Positions 15,427 to 30,379 of a stretch of DNA of 34,862 nucleotides are shown here, in pieces. The DNA comes from Candidatus Peribacteria bacterium (GTDB lineage Bacteria > Patescibacteriota > Gracilibacteria > UBA1369 > 2-02-FULL-48-14): the NCBI GenBank assembly GCA_943354505.1, contig CALRCE010000002.1, positions 2,585-37,446 of the forward strand. Reading direction: 5' to 3'. Below the pieces are notes generated by a model. The model worked only from the letters and a program-made list of their open reading frames with translations, ran no database searches and was not told the DNA's origin. The position numbers were made by a program, and so were the translations under genes. Each line of letters starts with the position of its first letter. The stretch's first letter is position 1.

Positions 15427-15678
15427 ATGAATACTTCCGTCACCTACACCAGCACACTCTCTCCCAAGCTTATGACTTGGTTGGACGAACATGCGGCTAC
15501 AGAGGGTTTGAGCAAAAAAAACATTATTGAAGCAGCATTGAACCTTTACAGAATTCAAGAAAAGAAGAAAGAGTTGGCTCAAATGTTTACAGAACTCAGT
15601 CAAGAAGAAGAAACCCTCACTTTGGCTGAGTCAGGCCTCGGGGATTATGTCGAACAACTAAAAAAACAGGATGAATGA
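15427..15678 (+). CDS. ribbon-helix-helix antitoxin
   Basis: VTYTSTLSPKLMTWLDEHAATEGLSKKNIIEAALNLY RHH; overlaps toxin by ATGA. Confidence 0.82.
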   Translation: MNTSVTYTSTLSPKLMTWLDEHAATEGLSKKNIIEAALNLYRIQEKKKELAQMFTELSQEEETLTLAESGLGDYVEQLKKQDE

Positions 15679-16007
15679 AACAAAGAGAAATTTATTTAGC
15701 GGATCTTGAGCCCATCAAAGGACAAGAACAAAAAGGCACGCGTCCTGTGGTGATCGTTTCAGGTCCAAGCATGAACAGCTATTTCAATCTCGTTACAATC
15801 TGTCCACTTTCCACCAAAATTAAAAATTATCCAGTTTGCGCAGTGATTAAGAAAAATGCTCGCAATGGACTAAAGTCCGATTCAGAAGTCCTCACTTTTC
15901 ACATTAGAACTGTTTCAAAAGATAGACTTATTAAAAAAATGGGAGAAATAAGCGGAGATCAACTTGAACAGATCTTTCAAGGCTTGAACGACATTCTGCG
16001 CTATTAA
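15675..16007 (+). CDS. MazF/PemK-family endoribonuclease toxin
   Basis: REIYLADLEPIKGQEQKGTRPVVIVSG; NLVTICPLSTKIKNYP; SEVLTFHIRTVSKDRL. Confidence 0.92.
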   Translation: MKQREIYLADLEPIKGQEQKGTRPVVIVSGPSMNSYFNLVTICPLSTKIKNYPVCAVIKKNARNGLKSDSEVLTFHIRTVSKDRLIKKMGEISGDQLEQIFQGLNDILRY

Positions 16008-17610: not shown

Positions 17611-19737
17611 TTACGCGCGTGCACGTCGTCTTAACAGAACATAGCCCAGAGCGCCTAAAGTGCTCAAAAGGATGAGGCCAGTGGCGGCAGGACCCGTTTC
17701 AGGAGTTTTGCTCACGTTGGTGTCCAAATTGGTCGCAACAGGGTAGGTGGGTGCAGGAAGCGTTTGCGTGGTGTCTTCTTCAGGAACTCCCAAAACCGCT
17801 TCTCCTGCGTCGCTTTCGGTTCCTTCAATGTCCACGGCGGTCACGGCAAAATAGTAGAGTTCATTGGCGGTGAGGTCGGGTATGGTCCAGTTGGTGCTGG
17901 AATCGGTGGTCTCAGAAAGTGCAAAGAGTGCCGAAGGGGAAGGACCGTAATAGATTCGATAAAAGGCAATGGCAAGTGCACTGTCTGGAGCGTCCCAGCT
18001 CAAAGCCACCAGTTCCACGCCACCCTTAGCCGTCACGTTGGTGACGGTGTCCACACTACTTTCCACAACGACAGGAGGAGTTTCTTCAACGGGTACTTCC
18101 TCGGCGGCCCGCACGGTGAGCGTGGCTTGATCTCGATATTGAACTTCATTGCCCAGCACATCCACCAGAAGAACATCCAAGGCGTACTCGCCTTCAGTGT
18201 TTGGAGCGACCAAAGTGACTTGATACTTTCCGGAAGTGGTCGTTTCTTCGGCCGTATAAACCTCCTCTTGAAAGAGCACAGAAACTTCATCCAAATCCGA
18301 TTCACTCAAGACCACCACATTCACAGAACTGCCGGGGTCTACCGCTGTCTCAGGAGTCACACTGATCGAAACAAGAGTGGGGGCGGCCGTGTCAATGGTC
18401 ACCGTTTCTGAACTGGAAGATTCAATCACCGTGTCTTGGTCACTTCGGATTTCCACATAAATCACATAATCTCCATCTTCCAAGTCTTGCAAGGTGTAAG
18501 AGAAACTGTTGTCGAATTCAATGTCAGTTTCACCAGCCTCTTCACCATTCACAAAGATGAAGGCGGTGTTTCCATATTCAGCTTCCCCTTGAACTTCAAC
18601 AGTATTGGAGGAGTAGCTGCCCGTGGCAGGACTGATGAGTTCGAAATCCCCTTCACGAGTGAAGTCGGTGGTCTCAAAGTCCGAACCGTAGTCGGTGGAA
18701 GCCTGCTCATCGGTGGTGACTTCGGTGTCTTCTTCGCCGTTCACGCGAACGTTCTCGATGTCGGTTGCAGTCAAAGTCTGATCACCCGGAGTGACGAACT
18801 TAACGCCCAAGCTGAAATCGTGTTCCCCCTGATCTTCCGCGAGGAAGGTGTAATCGTTTGGCAAACTGGCTTGATCATCACTGGAGGAAAAGCGAATGGT
18901 TCCCGTGTAGTCGGTGACCGTGAATCCATCGGCATCAATGGCTTTGACCGTCACGCTCAGGTCCTTTCCTGCTAAACTTTCACTGTCGAGTCCACTGATC
19001 ACAAAACCGTCCACGGGGCCGCTTTCAGCCAGCATCACAGAATCATTCACGGCGGGGCCACCTTTGAGAGCCAGTTGAGTAGGGCCTAAAATCATTTGTC
19101 CCAAGGTGGAATCGAAAATATGCATTTGGACCACACCGTCTCCATTTCCTAAAACAGAAAAGCTCATTTGGCCTTTTTCGTTGGTTCCAAATTCAGAAGT
19201 GAACACTTGCACGGCGCTGGAATCAGGAACGATGCTGAGCAAATGTCCTTCAACGGGGTTCCCAAAAGCGTCTTCTAAAAGCACACTCATGATGGAGCTT
19301 TGATCCGGTTGCAGCACGTTGCTGCTAAAGGAGATGCGAGAATGAGTCAGATCCGGTTCCGCAGCCAAAACATCAAAACTTTGAGAAACAGAAAAGTCCG
19401 TTCTTAGGGTCTTGTAGGCCACGGCCAAACTATAGTTGCCGGCACTTTCTAAATCTTCACCGGGAATCTCTAGACTGGCTTGTCCTTTGCCATCGGTCTC
19501 TGCTTCATAACTTTTGACCAAGCCATTCACCATTTCAAGTTCAAACTCCAGGGTGGAATCGGGTTCGGCTTGAACCGCCACCAGAGTGCTTTGTCCCGCT
19601 TCCAAGTCACTGAGCGCAGTCATGCGCACTTCCTCAAAAGGAGTGAGCGCTTTGATCAAACCAAAGACACTGAGCACACCCACAACCACAAGCAGCAGTC
19701 GAAGGGATTTAGCACGAAGTGAAAAGAATTCTGCCAT
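17611..19737 (-). CDS. large secreted/surface protein with Ig-like and fibronectin type III repeats and C-terminal sorting-like anchor
   Basis: N-terminal TM/signal; Ig-like strands; FN3 SWDAPDSALAIAFYRIYYG...WTIPDLTANELYYFAVTAVD; C-terminal TPETGP-hydrophobic-RRRARA. Confidence 0.82.
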   Translation of the reverse strand: MAEFFSLRAKSLRLLLVVVGVLSVFGLIKALTPFEEVRMTALSDLEAGQSTLVAVQAEPDSTLEFELEMVNGLVKSYEAETDGKGQASLEIPGEDLESAGNYSLAVAYKTLRTDFSVSQSFDVLAAEPDLTHSRISFSSNVLQPDQSSIMSVLLEDAFGNPVEGHLLSIVPDSSAVQVFTSEFGTNEKGQMSFSVLGNGDGVVQMHIFDSTLGQMILGPTQLALKGGPAVNDSVMLAESGPVDGFVISGLDSESLAGKDLSVTVKAIDADGFTVTDYTGTIRFSSSDDQASLPNDYTFLAEDQGEHDFSLGVKFVTPGDQTLTATDIENVRVNGEEDTEVTTDEQASTDYGSDFETTDFTREGDFELISPATGSYSSNTVEVQGEAEYGNTAFIFVNGEEAGETDIEFDNSFSYTLQDLEDGDYVIYVEIRSDQDTVIESSSSETVTIDTAAPTLVSISVTPETAVDPGSSVNVVVLSESDLDEVSVLFQEEVYTAEETTTSGKYQVTLVAPNTEGEYALDVLLVDVLGNEVQYRDQATLTVRAAEEVPVEETPPVVVESSVDTVTNVTAKGGVELVALSWDAPDSALAIAFYRIYYGPSPSALFALSETTDSSTNWTIPDLTANELYYFAVTAVDIEGTESDAGEAVLGVPEEDTTQTLPAPTYPVATNLDTNVSKTPETGPAATGLILLSTLGALGYVLLRRRARA

Positions 19738-19759
19738 ACGTTCGTTATTCAATCTGTTT

Positions 19760-19788
19760 ATTATAGCAGAAAAGAGCATGAAGTACAA
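19760..19788 (-). promoter_or_regulatory. predicted promoter of surface protein: TTGTAC-N17-TATAAT
   Basis: -10 complement 19760-19765, -35 complement 19783-19788, ATG 19737. Confidence 0.6.
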
Positions 19789-19789
19789 G

Positions 19790-20947
19790 TCAGTGAACCA
19801 AGGGGGTCGCGTCGTGCCAGTCTGTGCTAGAAACAGGATTCTGCACAGGTTTTTGAGTATGTTTCAAGACGATCAAAGTCATGTCGTCCAATTGGATCTG
19901 CCCTTCCATGAAGCGCCCCACGTCAATCGCGATCTTTTCAAAGAGTTCATCAGGAGTGGTTTGAGCGCTCACTTGGCTCTGCATAAACGTTGTGAGTCGT
20001 TCCAAGCTGTAAATGTCGCCAGCCATGTTTTTGGCCTCCACAATTCCATCCGAATACAGCACTACAAAATCATTCTCTTCCAAAACCACTTCTTGCTCAT
20101 GCACATAAGGCGCATTGTTGGCCAGCATTCCCACGGCAATACCGCCGGCTTTGAGGGTTTGGACTTCATTGCTTTTAGCCTTCAAATGCACAAGGTATTC
20201 GTGCCCCGCTCCACTCCAACGAAGGGTTTTCTTTTCAGGCAACCATTCCATCAAAATCATGGTCATGAACATGGTCGGCTTCAGATGGGGCTTCAAATAC
20301 TTGTTCAAAGAAACCAGAATATCGGTGAGAGTGTCTTTGAGGTCGATAAAAGTCTCGAGCAAAGCATCCACCATCACCATCACAATGCCCGCCGGGATTC
20401 CGTGCCCCGTGGAATCTCCAATATAAATCAAATAACGGTCGTTTTTTTGATAAAAATCAAAAGTGTCGCCTCCTATTTCTGAAGCAGGACGCGTCTTGGC
20501 ACTGATACTCAGCCCCGGTACAAGGGGAGGCTGTTTGGGAATGAGCAGTTGTTGGATGTCTTGAGCGGAATCGAGTTCTTTGCGAAGGCGTTGGTGGTTC
20601 TTCACATCGCCAGAAATGCTCTCCAAGCTGCGAGTCACTTCGTTAAAAAAGTGCGCCAAGACACCCACTTCATCTTGTTTGGAAGTCATCAAACGGTGGT
20701 AAGGACGCCCGGTTAGCAAGGCTTTCATTTCACGAATGATCTTTTTGAAAGGACGTTGAATGAGCCAGTAAAAAGAAACGATGCTGATCAAACAAAAAGC
20801 ACCGACCACCACGGGAAGTCGCCACACCTCAGGAACCCACACTTCTTTTTCAATGACAAAGCTCAAGGCGACACTAAGTCCGCCCAAGAGCAAGAGTAGA
20901 AAAAGATAAAAACTGAAAAGGTGGCGGCGGAAGAGCATCACCCCCAT
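19790..20947 (-). CDS. membrane-anchored PP2C-type SpoIIE/RsbU-like serine phosphatase with HAMP-like region
   Basis: Two N-terminal TMs; EIGGDTFDFY, GDSTGHGIPAGIVM, LYSDGIVEAKN, QLDDMTLIVLK. Confidence 0.9.
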   Translation of the reverse strand: MGVMLFRRHLFSFYLFLLLLLGGLSVALSFVIEKEVWVPEVWRLPVVVGAFCLISIVSFYWLIQRPFKKIIREMKALLTGRPYHRLMTSKQDEVGVLAHFFNEVTRSLESISGDVKNHQRLRKELDSAQDIQQLLIPKQPPLVPGLSISAKTRPASEIGGDTFDFYQKNDRYLIYIGDSTGHGIPAGIVMVMVDALLETFIDLKDTLTDILVSLNKYLKPHLKPTMFMTMILMEWLPEKKTLRWSGAGHEYLVHLKAKSNEVQTLKAGGIAVGMLANNAPYVHEQEVVLEENDFVVLYSDGIVEAKNMAGDIYSLERLTTFMQSQVSAQTTPDELFEKIAIDVGRFMEGQIQLDDMTLIVLKHTQKPVQNPVSSTDWHDATPLVH

Positions 20948-20958
20948 TATAAGGAGTT

Positions 20959-23286
20959 CTAATCCGTTGAATCAAGCACCTTTTGAACCTGATGAGCCTC
21001 ATGATGAGCAGAAATCTTGGAATAGAGCAGGGCCAAAACCTCCAAACTCTCACGACCCAAGTCCTCCAAAGTCTTGCCTTGATGAGGCGCAAGCAGGTGG
21101 CGAATAGTTTCTGAAACATATTTTTCAAAAGCGACTTTCACTTCCGCAGCAAAACGAGTGGGAAGGGAACTGAGCACCGAGTTCATTTCTTCAAACCATT
21201 CATGGTTGGGGTCTAAGAATCGATGAATGAGCTTCGAAATCACTTCAGAATCTTCCAGTTGAGCCAATGAAAGCAAGGCCGCCTTTTGCAACTCAGGGTG
21301 CGAAGGATCGTCGGCGACTTGGCGTAAAAAGGCTTGTGCAGGCTTGTAGTGAGTTTCACCCGCTGCAAGCACCCCTGCGTGAACAAAGGATTCCTTTGGA
21401 CTGCTGAGCAGTTGTTCCAAGTGGTGAACCAAAGTGCTCTGCATACTCACGTCCTTCCAAAGAGCCACGATGGCGGCGGCTCTGACTTCAGGGTCTTTGT
21501 CTTCTAAGGCAGGAGCAAGGTAGTGTTTCAAATTAGGATCAGTGAACAACTTGAGCATGCGAATGAGTTTGGCTTTGTGCGCAGAATCGTCTTGAAGTTC
21601 ACGCAAAACAAATTCCGTGAAGCGTTGAGGATCGATTTCAAACAAGCGCGACACAATGGCTTCTCGCACCCATTCGTCTTTCTCGGGCAAGAGGTGTTTT
21701 TCTAAGGTGTGCAGGACACGAGTTCGAGTGAAAGAATGAGACAAAGAACTCTTCTTTAAAAGGGTGAAATTTTTGAGTGAGTGCAACACTTCAAAACGCA
21801 AACGATCGGAAGGATCATCCAAAAGGGTCAAGAGGCTTTCAATGGCGGTGACGTCTTCACGGAGTCCTAGAGTGCTCACGATTTTTTCTCTCAAAATAAG
21901 GGGTTCTTGAGGGCGTTTTAAAATCTTCTGCAAAGAACTGGTGAGGTGCGCGTGTCCTTTTTGCCCCAAAATCTCCACTGCATTGAGTCGAGTAGAAAGA
22001 TCCAGCTTGTGACTGAGGTTGTGTTCGCACATTTCTGTGTACAGTCCCGACATCTTTTGGAGTAAAAGGAACATCACAAGCGATAAGCCAAGAATGAGAA
22101 AATTGAGAGCCAAGCCCAGTCGAGCAGAACTTAAAAATAAAGAAACCAGGATCATGCTGCCCGTCCCCAAAATAGCACCCAAAGGTTTCACCATTCCTTG
22201 CAGCACTTCTTTGGCATCGTCACGCAGTTCGTGAGGAATCGCATAAAACGAGGAGTCGTAGCCATTTTTAAAGAAAATATTGGTGAATTCAAATCCTCCT
22301 TTCACCAAAGCGGCACTCGCAAAACTGTAGTGATAAGTCATGGCCAGCACATTCAAAATCACTCCAATGGGGTGCAGCACCATGCTCCACACCACGCCAA
22401 GCGTGGTCAAAACGCGACTCGCGGCAATGAGTTGGATGAAGAGCGCGACCGAGAAGAAGACCATGTGCAAGGTTCCCAGTCGACTGGTCAGGTCTTCCTC
22501 GTAATGCGCGGAGTGAGCAACGGCTTCCTGCAAGGCATTGGTGTACTGGAACTCGATGATGTTCATCACCGCCCAATGCATCAAAACAACCAAGATCAAA
22601 GCCTTTAGAAAAGGAACTTTCTTAATGGCATTGAAGCTTTCCATCAGTTTCTTGGGCCCATGTTTATGTTTACTCTCCAACTTCGGCACCTCTAAGGTAC
22701 GAGAGTTGAAAAGCAAAACAATCGGAATGATCATCAGGAGCAAGATCACCCAAAACACCATGAATTTATAAGCCGGAACACTGTGAGAAAATTGGCTGAG
22801 CAGAAACCCGGCCAAGATTCCCCCCAAAGTCTCTGCCGATTCAATCACAGGGAAGACGCGCTGACTTTCAAGAGGGGAGAAGAGTTCTTCGTTGAACAAA
22901 GAGATCAAAATGCTCAGTTGCGTCACAAAAATGCCTTGCCCAATCATATAAAACACAAAGAATGCGGAGTTTCCTTGTGGCAAAAAGGCGACGGAAGCGA
23001 TCAAAAAAGCCGCGGAATAGAGCACGGTGTAGGTGATGAGCAGTTCACGGCGAACTCGATGTAAAAGAGGCCGATAGAGAAAAGTCCCGAGCATCACCAA
23101 GGCCGCATTGACCAAGAAAAACACAGGGAGCAAATGCGCTCCGCTCTTGGTTAAAAAGGTAGCCAAGAGGATGGTGGAGCCAATGATGAACCCGATGCGA
23201 GTCAAAAAAGTCATGAGCCAGCCCACAAAGACTCGAGGCCATTCATGTTGTTGAAGATTGAGGACGCGATTTAAGGTTTGGAGCAT
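20959..23286 (-). CDS. MFS/NTP-transporter-like membrane protein fused to C-terminal HEAT repeats
   Basis: About 10-12 TMs in residues 1-420, FFKNGYDSSFYAIPHELRDDAKEVLQGMVKPLGAILG, then helical HEAT-like repeats to the end. Confidence 0.78.
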   Translation of the reverse strand: MLQTLNRVLNLQQHEWPRVFVGWLMTFLTRIGFIIGSTILLATFLTKSGAHLLPVFFLVNAALVMLGTFLYRPLLHRVRRELLITYTVLYSAAFLIASVAFLPQGNSAFFVFYMIGQGIFVTQLSILISLFNEELFSPLESQRVFPVIESAETLGGILAGFLLSQFSHSVPAYKFMVFWVILLLMIIPIVLLFNSRTLEVPKLESKHKHGPKKLMESFNAIKKVPFLKALILVVLMHWAVMNIIEFQYTNALQEAVAHSAHYEEDLTSRLGTLHMVFFSVALFIQLIAASRVLTTLGVVWSMVLHPIGVILNVLAMTYHYSFASAALVKGGFEFTNIFFKNGYDSSFYAIPHELRDDAKEVLQGMVKPLGAILGTGSMILVSLFLSSARLGLALNFLILGLSLVMFLLLQKMSGLYTEMCEHNLSHKLDLSTRLNAVEILGQKGHAHLTSSLQKILKRPQEPLILREKIVSTLGLREDVTAIESLLTLLDDPSDRLRFEVLHSLKNFTLLKKSSLSHSFTRTRVLHTLEKHLLPEKDEWVREAIVSRLFEIDPQRFTEFVLRELQDDSAHKAKLIRMLKLFTDPNLKHYLAPALEDKDPEVRAAAIVALWKDVSMQSTLVHHLEQLLSSPKESFVHAGVLAAGETHYKPAQAFLRQVADDPSHPELQKAALLSLAQLEDSEVISKLIHRFLDPNHEWFEEMNSVLSSLPTRFAAEVKVAFEKYVSETIRHLLAPHQGKTLEDLGRESLEVLALLYSKISAHHEAHQVQKVLDSTD

Positions 23287-23370
23287 GATTGGATGAGATC
23301 ATGTTATTATGACATAATTTTGCTAATTTGAAAAGGGTATGTGGGCCGCAAAGGAAAAGAGTTTGATAAA

Positions 23371-24888
23371 ATGCCACCGATGTGGAAATTCCTAAAAAAA
23401 GACGCCGTACACTTTGGAGCCATTCTTTTAGCGGTCTCTTCTTTGCTGAGCCGCGTCCTAGGCGTGCTCAGAGATCTTGTTTTTTCGGCCATCTTTGGAG
23501 TGGGAACTCAGGGAGGGGATTTCGCCCTAGACGCCTACTTTGTGGCCTTCAAAATTCCAGACTTTCTCTACACGCTGCTCATTTTTGGAGCCATGTCGGC
23601 GGCCTTCATCCCGCTCTACGCAGAACTTAAAAAGAAAGAAGGAAACGAGCCCGCTTCACAGTTTGCCAGCCAAGTGCTCACCGGTTTGATGGGCTTTTTA
23701 GTGGGCTGCTCGGCTCTGGCTTGGATCTTGGCGCCGTGGATCATTCCACACTTGGCTTCGGGCTTTGACCCTGAGCTTCAAGCCTTAGCAGTGACGCTGA
23801 CTCGCATCATGCTCCTGTCACCGATTTTCATGGGACTCAGCAGCATTTTGCAAGGCATCGAAAACGCACATCAATCCTTTTATGGAACAGCCCTGGCCCC
23901 CTTGCTGTACAACGGCAGCATCATTGCAGCCGCAGCCTTTTTTGGAAGGGAATGGGGCGTCTACGCTCTGGCCTACGGAGTCGCCTTCGGAGCCTTTCTG
24001 CACTTCCTCGTACAAATTCCTGGAACGCTCCGCAGTGGTTTCACATATCGATTTCACTTTCAGAAAAAAGATCCCAAATGGCGTGAATTCATCCGCCTGA
24101 GTCTCCCGCGACTCTTTGGAGCTTCTGCGCTTCAATTCGCTTCCTTCGCAGACGTTTACATGGCCAGTTTCCTAGCCTTAGGAAGTCTTTCGGTCTACAC
24201 CTATGCGTTCAACCTGCAAAGTTTGCCTTACGGGGTGGTGGCGGTGGCCGTCTCCACAGCCATTTTTGCTCGCTTGTCGGAGCAAGCGGACGAAAAAAAG
24301 GAATTCCTAAAATCGATCCAACAAAGCCTTTCTCAAATTCTCTTTTGGGTGCTGCCCGCCATCTTAGGTTTATTCTTAATACGCGAGCCTTTGATCCGTT
24401 TGCTTTTGGAACGAGGAGCTTTCGATGCCGAAGCGACGCAGCGCACCGCCGCCATGCTGGGCTTCTTTGTCTGGGCCGCCTTGCCTCAAAGTTTCATCCC
24501 GCTCTTCACGCGAGCCTTTTATGCTTTGAAAAAGACCGCTTTCCCAGTGCTGTGTGCCTGCGTCTCCATTGTGCTCACCATTGGGTTCAACGCCATCGGT
24601 ATTTGGGTCTACAAAGGGGATGTGACCACGCTGGCCTTAGGAAATCTGCTCGGTTCCACCCTCAACGCCAGCCTGCTGTATTTAGGCTTGGCCCGCGAAC
24701 TCAAAGTTTCCCCCTTTGTCTTTTTGAACTTTAAAAAACTGACAATGCAATTGATCGCGCTCGCGCTCATGACTTTGATGATTTTCGCCACAAAAGAACA
24801 ATCGGTGCTCATCCAAATGGCACTCGCGGGAGGGATTTACTTAAGCACACTCTCGCTTTTCAAAGTGAGGCCGGCCCGTCAACAATAA
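23371..24888 (+). CDS. murJ: lipid II flippase MurJ/MviN
   Basis: SSLLSRVLGVLRDLVFSAIFG...DAYFVAFKIPDFLYTLLIFGAMSAAFIPLY; multiple TMs. Confidence 0.95.
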   Translation: MPPMWKFLKKDAVHFGAILLAVSSLLSRVLGVLRDLVFSAIFGVGTQGGDFALDAYFVAFKIPDFLYTLLIFGAMSAAFIPLYAELKKKEGNEPASQFASQVLTGLMGFLVGCSALAWILAPWIIPHLASGFDPELQALAVTLTRIMLLSPIFMGLSSILQGIENAHQSFYGTALAPLLYNGSIIAAAAFFGREWGVYALAYGVAFGAFLHFLVQIPGTLRSGFTYRFHFQKKDPKWREFIRLSLPRLFGASALQFASFADVYMASFLALGSLSVYTYAFNLQSLPYGVVAVAVSTAIFARLSEQADEKKEFLKSIQQSLSQILFWVLPAILGLFLIREPLIRLLLERGAFDAEATQRTAAMLGFFVWAALPQSFIPLFTRAFYALKKTAFPVLCACVSIVLTIGFNAIGIWVYKGDVTTLALGNLLGSTLNASLLYLGLARELKVSPFVFLNFKKLTMQLIALALMTLMIFATKEQSVLIQMALAGGIYLSTLSLFKVRPARQQ

Positions 24889-29411: not shown

Positions 29412-30011
29412 ATGGACTCCACACCTCTTCCCACTCAACTCGAACAGACCGTCGTTCAGGCTCAAACAGAAATTTCTCCTGCTGAGGTGAAAGACCTGCC
29501 TTTGGATGAGCGCCCCACCGAAATTCGAATTGCGATCCCCACTCAAGCTTACTTTCTTTCAGGAATCCGAGACTTCGTGGTGAATTTGACCAAAAATCTC
29601 ACCGGATTTTCTTCTCAATGGGCCTTTCGTTTTCAGGCCGTCGTGGACGAACTCTGCAACAACGCCATTGAACACGGCAGTAAACCCGGAGAATTCATCA
29701 AAGTGTCTCTCATTAGTACTAAAAATAAATCGCTTGAAGTGATTGTAGAAGACACTGGTACAGGAAAAGAAAAAATGAACGCGCAACAACTCACGGCTCT
29801 CTTGCAAGAACGCAAACAAATGATGACTTCGCAGTATTTGGGTTTCCGTGGCCGTGGATTGCCTAAAATTGTAGGCGAATGGACGGACGAACTTGTTTTT
29901 GAAGACCTTCCAGAAGGAGGAATACGGGTAAAAGTAAAAAAATATTTACGAAAGGAAGAGGACAAGGTAGTCTCTACCCAGAAAAATTCTACTAGCCATC
30001 TCTACGTATGA
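29412..30011 (+). CDS. RsbW/SpoIIAB-like HATPase serine kinase (anti-sigma-type)
   Basis: N-box VVDELCNNAIEHG, G1 VEDTGTGKE, G2 GFRGRGLPKIV. Confidence 0.87.
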   Translation: MDSTPLPTQLEQTVVQAQTEISPAEVKDLPLDERPTEIRIAIPTQAYFLSGIRDFVVNLTKNLTGFSSQWAFRFQAVVDELCNNAIEHGSKPGEFIKVSLISTKNKSLEVIVEDTGTGKEKMNAQQLTALLQERKQMMTSQYLGFRGRGLPKIVGEWTDELVFEDLPEGGIRVKVKKYLRKEEDKVVSTQKNSTSHLYV

Positions 30012-30379
30012 CCTCCGTACAAATCACCATCGAAGACCTTTCGGGTGCACCTCAAGGTAAAGTACTCAAATTGATTCGCATTGTCGGACAGTTGGACGAA
30101 AGCAATGTGGATGAACAAGCCAAGACCATCTACACCTTGATCGAAAGCGGCATCCAAGGTCTCAGCTTGATTTTTGATTTCACGGGGCTCGAATACATGA
30201 ACAGCAAATCCATTGGTTATTTGACCGATTGGTACAGCAAGGTCTCCACCACCGGAGGAAAAGTGGTCATCGCTGCAGCACGTGAAAACATTCTTGATAT
30301 TCTACAGGTCGTAGGACTCACACAACTGATCCCCGCTTACGCAACTTTAGAAGAGGCGAAGATGGCCGTTCTCCAGTAA
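30008..30379 (+). CDS. STAS-domain anti-anti-sigma-type protein
   Basis: SLIFDFTGLEYMNSKSIGYLTDWYSKVSTTGGKVVIAAARENILDILQVVGLTQLIP; ATGA overlap with kinase. Confidence 0.9.
   Translation: MTSVQITIEDLSGAPQGKVLKLIRIVGQLDESNVDEQAKTIYTLIESGIQGLSLIFDFTGLEYMNSKSIGYLTDWYSKVSTTGGKVVIAAARENILDILQVVGLTQLIPAYATLEEAKMAVLQ

Follow-up and report, generated by a model that had tools for sequence, protein, structure and literature searches.

The window analysed here, a 34,862-nucleotide stretch of a Candidatus Peribacteria genome (1.16 Mb, 43 contigs, 98% complete), encodes a protein that joins a transporter-like membrane domain to a helical tail, raising the question as to whether it moves nucleotides across the membrane or serves some other purpose. 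A first-pass annotation, made from the sequence alone, had likened it to NTP/NDP exchange transporters and proposed an import or sensing role should the host be a nucleotide auxotroph. The gene and its parts are:

20959 to 23286, minus strand: MFS-HEAT gene (NTT-like MFS domain plus HEAT solenoid), 775 aa, the main subject of this report.
22015 to 23286, minus strand: membrane domain of 12 helices, residues 1 to about 422-424, whose best PDB matches are NTTs.
20962 to 22002, minus strand: HEAT-repeat alpha-solenoid, residues ~429-775, predicted to be cytoplasmic (Pfam, AlphaFold2, loop charges).

The reading frame is real and occupies exactly 20959-23286 on the minus strand; stop codons crowd the plus strand. 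At E≤0.001, 83 of 99 related genomes have a relative of the protein (~20-54% identity), mostly near full-length with the frame intact, so the ORF is a conserved gene, not a product of chance. Those relatives that carry organism names place the host with Candidatus Peregrinibacteria/Peribacteria. The full-length AlphaFold2 model, built with 29 orthologues (mean pLDDT 86.9), has twelve long helices at residues 13-422, a positively charged central loop, and helix pairs from 430 to 775, bearing out both the earlier description of a membrane domain followed by a HEAT-like tail in a single ORF and the expectation that this tail folds as an alpha-solenoid. Loops of the membrane domain carry 16 K+R on the cytoplasmic side versus 3 on the opposite side, placing the tail in the cytoplasm. 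The profile comparisons proposed as a check gave a mixed outcome: HEAT is recognized clearly (HEAT_2, 7.6e-23), MFS_1 (6.6e-7) lies slightly below the Pfam cut-off, and TLC is not reached.

Because direct searches with the window protein (Pfam, NCBIfam, single-sequence PDB) returned only HEAT and a weak MFS_1 match, and a PDB profile search with the membrane domain returned no match, its kinship was judged through relatives and fold. A model of the membrane domain alone (AlphaFold2, pLDDT 87.8) ranks AtNTT1 with ATP (9j3l), AtNTT1 with ADP (9j3m) and Chlamydia pneumoniae NTT1 (9j3n) as its first three PDB matches, with TMq values of 0.81, 0.80 and 0.73 and E-values of 5e-10 to 8e-9; the next-ranked non-NTT has a TMq of 0.65, and the highest non-NTT value within the top 50 is 0.73 (8qsl). 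AtNTT1 also ranks first with the full-length model. At the sequence level the connection comes from intermediates: a protein of a Verrucomicrobiota-set genome (G587, locus L111) is matched by a profile of CPR and Sphingomonas membrane domains at 1.5e-47 and itself matches AtNTT1 (1.7e-7) and TLC (3.2e-11), and several HEAT-fused relatives score 21.7-43 bits against TLC. One orthologue (G011) reaches 24.4 bits in the genome profile search, where the cut-off is 21, and has no TLC match by hmmscan; an unrelated gene reached 20.2 bits by chance. TLC matches of ~20 bits in other CPR genomes were likewise set down to chance, one being an aminotransferase-like ORF, and are not used as evidence. The membrane-domain tree separates HEAT-fused proteins from unfused NTTs with support of 99/91, several of its branches being long. 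The segment FFKNGYDSSFYAIPHELRDDAKEVLQGMVKPLGAILG singled out in the first-pass annotation spans residues ~338-374 and indeed aligns with a conserved NTT stretch, KVKGKAAIDVVCNPLGKSGG, and the proposed likeness to exchange transporters is upheld by fold, by intermediates that pass the TLC cut-off or match AtNTT1, and by the tree. We conclude that the window protein, with its MFS domain of the ATP/ADP-translocase type and its cytoplasmic HEAT solenoid, belongs to the NTT-HEAT family as a divergent member.

NTT-HEAT and NTT-HEAT-cNBD fusions were described by Major et al. in 2017, as were cNBDs adjacent to NTT-HEAT fusions, with no function assigned (PMC5381601). The proteins studied here agree with that description in that an NTT-type membrane domain precedes HEAT repeats in one chain, the non-CPR homologues carry or adjoin a cNBD, and the HEAT-fused forms constitute one clade (99/91); they depart from it in that the CPR branch is long, no cNBD was found with that branch, and the window protein falls below the TLC cut-off. 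With the translocases themselves (AtNTT1, 9j3j/l/m; C. pneumoniae NTT1, 9j3n/o) the window protein shares the fold, the E385 position, and the P and G of the PLGK motif, but K155 and K527 are replaced, a HEAT tail is added, and identity is only ~15%.

Transport by AtNTT1 is reported to need four charged residues, K155, E245, E385 and K527 (PMC4256464, PMC10654386), which we placed in the PDB sequence, deducing their numbering from how all four are spaced. The corresponding residues of the window protein are F, Q, E and A. Across 29 CPR orthologues the K155 position is F in 26 and otherwise I, L or Y, the K527 position has A, T, S or I, glutamate stands at E245 in 13, and the E385 position has E in 28 and, in the remaining one, D; the K427 and K431 chain positions stay basic. 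No other HEAT-fused homologue in the alignment has K155 or K527, and neither do the three unfused bacterial relatives aligned, so the loss is not confined to the fusions. Since E385 and, in 13 of the 29, E245 are retained, the alignment is consistent with a residue of transport activity, which may persist. The host has purH and two DHO_dh genes, and Peribacteria have been described as making nucleotides (PMC4736985); on the genes checked, the supposed auxotrophy finds no support, and we have set it aside as a motive. With that premise unsupported and two of the four transport residues lost across the family, nucleotide import by the MFS-HEAT protein is unlikely, and of the two roles suggested at the outset it is sensing that the gene neighbourhood favours. 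The neighbours concerned are:

19790 to 20947, minus strand: HAMP/coiled-coil-like linker and SpoIIE-type PP2C phosphatase, 385 aa (SpoIIE, 3.6e-43).
29412 to 30011, plus strand: HATPase_c_2 protein (RsbW-like switch kinase), 199 aa, the same neighbour being present in CPR loci.
30008 to 30379, plus strand: STAS protein (RsbV-like), 123 aa, overlapping the kinase gene.
23341 to 24888, plus strand: murJ, divergent, a syntenic neighbour in relatives and probably outside the module.

The SpoIIE gene starts 11 bp past the MFS-HEAT stop codon, and its product has intact PP2C active-site motifs. Its two transmembrane helices are parted by a loop of ~20 residues, as against ~170 in the proteobacterial counterparts, and the local phosphatase is therefore without a periplasmic sensor domain. 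A distance of 6 kb separates the MFS-HEAT gene from the genes for the RsbW-like and RsbV-like proteins. These components resemble RsbU, RsbV and RsbW of Bacillus and Chlamydia, with a HAMP/linker plus SpoIIE PP2C phosphatase, a STAS antagonist and a HATPase_c_2 kinase, but here the phosphatase has no periplasmic sensor and its partner gene encodes a transporter-like protein. We also considered CT589, the neighbour of chlamydial RsbU, as a possible NTT-HEAT protein, and rejected it as an RsbU paralogue. The third gene of the run (17611-19788, minus strand) abuts the SpoIIE stop and encodes a 725 aa Ig/FN3 surface protein with a tail, PETG-hydrophobic-RRRARA, resembling a sorting signal.

Among the matches listed, SpoIIE lies downstream on the same strand in at least 64 of 80 CPR genomes, and four more on fetching raise this to 68 of 80; five genomes seem to be cut by contig ends and are not counted as linked, and a sixth was set aside. 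A genome of this group, ~1.2 Mb long, has only about two SpoIIE genes. A STAS gene often stands between MFS-HEAT and SpoIIE, and a HATPase-STAS pair is found 4.5-7.7 kb upstream in 14 of the 16 CPR loci that have 10 kb of upstream sequence. The order murJ/MFS-HEAT/STAS/SpoIIE/queA is a block of conserved synteny, however, so the 68 linked genomes are not independent observations. Four genomes keep STAS and SpoIIE with no MFS-HEAT gene detected alongside, which fits a dispensable input, and six keep MFS-HEAT and lack the short SpoIIE gene; the partnership is thus common and not obligatory. Three of the genomes with STAS and SpoIIE but no MFS-HEAT gene beside them also have HATPase-STAS nearby. 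The host genome encodes, in addition, a distant MFS-HEAT paralogue with HEAT repeats (G000:C5:12598-14769; 752 aa, 24% identity); SpoIIE, STAS and HATPase gave no match in the 20 kb around it.

Outside CPR, the same phosphatase accompanies homologues in Sphingomonadales, Caulobacterales, Lysobacter and one Verrucomicrobiota-set genome in other arrangements, most of them with STAS and kinase genes as well. In Sphingomonadales and Caulobacterales SpoIIE is divergent, within ~100 bp or overlapping, in 11 of 11 loci; the order there is divergent SpoIIE, MFS-HEAT, HAMP protein, cNBD, HAMP protein, followed in 10 of the 11 by STAS plus HATPase, 5-7 kb on. In Lysobacter SpoIIE is downstream, as it is for a homologue (G604) flanked by STAS, HATPase and SpoIIE. 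No SpoIIE gene was found in the stretches examined around the NTT-HEAT-cNBD genes of L059, L062, G587 and G539, and no MFS-HEAT relatives were found in viral contigs. The HAMP-type membrane proteins of the proteobacterial cluster (L048 8525-9802 and 10185-11435) have no Pfam catalytic domain, the second resembling, by eye, a degenerate phosphatase. G587 (Verrucomicrobiota set) has three NTT-HEAT(-cNBD) copies, at L111, L112 and L113, one of which adjoins a HAMP histidine kinase instead.

Because the linkage recurs in differing arrangements, the local phosphatase has no built-in sensor, and the residues for transport have been partly lost, the reading that fits best is that MFS-HEAT is an NTT-derived receptor, or 'transceptor', acting as the input subunit of a partner-switching system with the SpoIIE phosphatase; we give this a probability of about 0.58. 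The combination suggests a transporter turned sensor, not a nucleotide importer. In such a system a small molecule, possibly nucleotide-like or phosphorylated, would be bound in the central cavity of the NTT-like domain, and the resulting change in conformation would be relayed to the HEAT tail; the tail could dock on the HAMP/coiled-coil linker of the adjacent phosphatase and switch its dimer on or off. RsbU-type phosphatases are activated via their linker coiled coils (PMC12143880). The phosphatase would then dephosphorylate the STAS protein or proteins, and dephosphorylated STAS would bind the RsbW-like kinase, freeing the kinase's target, which may be a sigma factor of this genome. A sigma factor as the target is possible but unproven, there being five sigma-70 region 2 matches in the host genome.

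Two other explanations deserve consideration. The protein could be a functional NTT-type transporter that exchanges or imports nucleotides or some other phosphorylated metabolite, its flux being regulated by the HEAT tail and the phosphatase; the NTT fold, the retention of E385 in 28 of 29 orthologues, the basic residues at the K427 and K431 chain positions, and the lifestyle of relatives, thought to be symbiotic (PMC4736985), all speak for it. We nonetheless consider it unlikely, as K155→F and K527→A, lost across the family, remove two of the four residues reported to be needed (PMC4256464), purH and DHO_dh are present, and the nearby STAS and kinase genes point to regulation of something else. 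It could also be a cell-envelope transporter or scaffold whose adjacency to SpoIIE reflects only old synteny, as the likewise conserved neighbours murJ and queA and the Ig/FN3 surface protein gene downstream of SpoIIE might indicate. This is less probable still, since phosphatase, STAS and kinase genes accompany homologues in Proteobacteria and Verrucomicrobiota in a different order, and murJ is absent from the genes listed around the Sphingomonas homologue. A role in anti-phage defence was considered and rejected, the match being a generic HEAT/ARM one only.

The NTT-HEAT architecture is already known (PMC5381601), and the recurrent partner-switching linkage is the new part; no description of NTT-HEAT genes linked to SpoIIE, STAS and kinase genes turned up in the papers searched, a collection with little from subscription journals or preprint servers. 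In 2017 these fusions were provisionally taken for transporters, and the recurrence of the linkage in CPR, Alpha- and Gammaproteobacteria and a Verrucomicrobiota-set genome points instead to sensing, a question that becomes testable in culturable Sphingomonas. By analogy only, the arrangement recalls E. coli UhpC/UhpB, in which an MFS protein interacts with a membrane signalling enzyme, according to work cited in PMC5703999. The partner of UhpC differs, however, in being a histidine kinase. UhpC is not known to have a HEAT tail.

For a group of uncultured small-genome bacteria, the input-subunit reading names a candidate for what feeds a signalling switch. A broader proposal, that HEAT-fused NTTs are widespread receptors which arose from ATP/ADP exchangers, sense nucleotides or metabolites, and control PP2C phosphatases via the HEAT scaffold, is speculative and on present evidence doubtful. 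If true, such receptors would mirror in bacteria the HEAT scaffold that PP2A has, and uncharacterised NTT-HEAT proteins, including one reported in Chlamydia, would gain a signalling role. Elsewhere in the window, a short ORF at 15675-16007 on the plus strand resembles, by eye, a MazF/PemK-type toxin.
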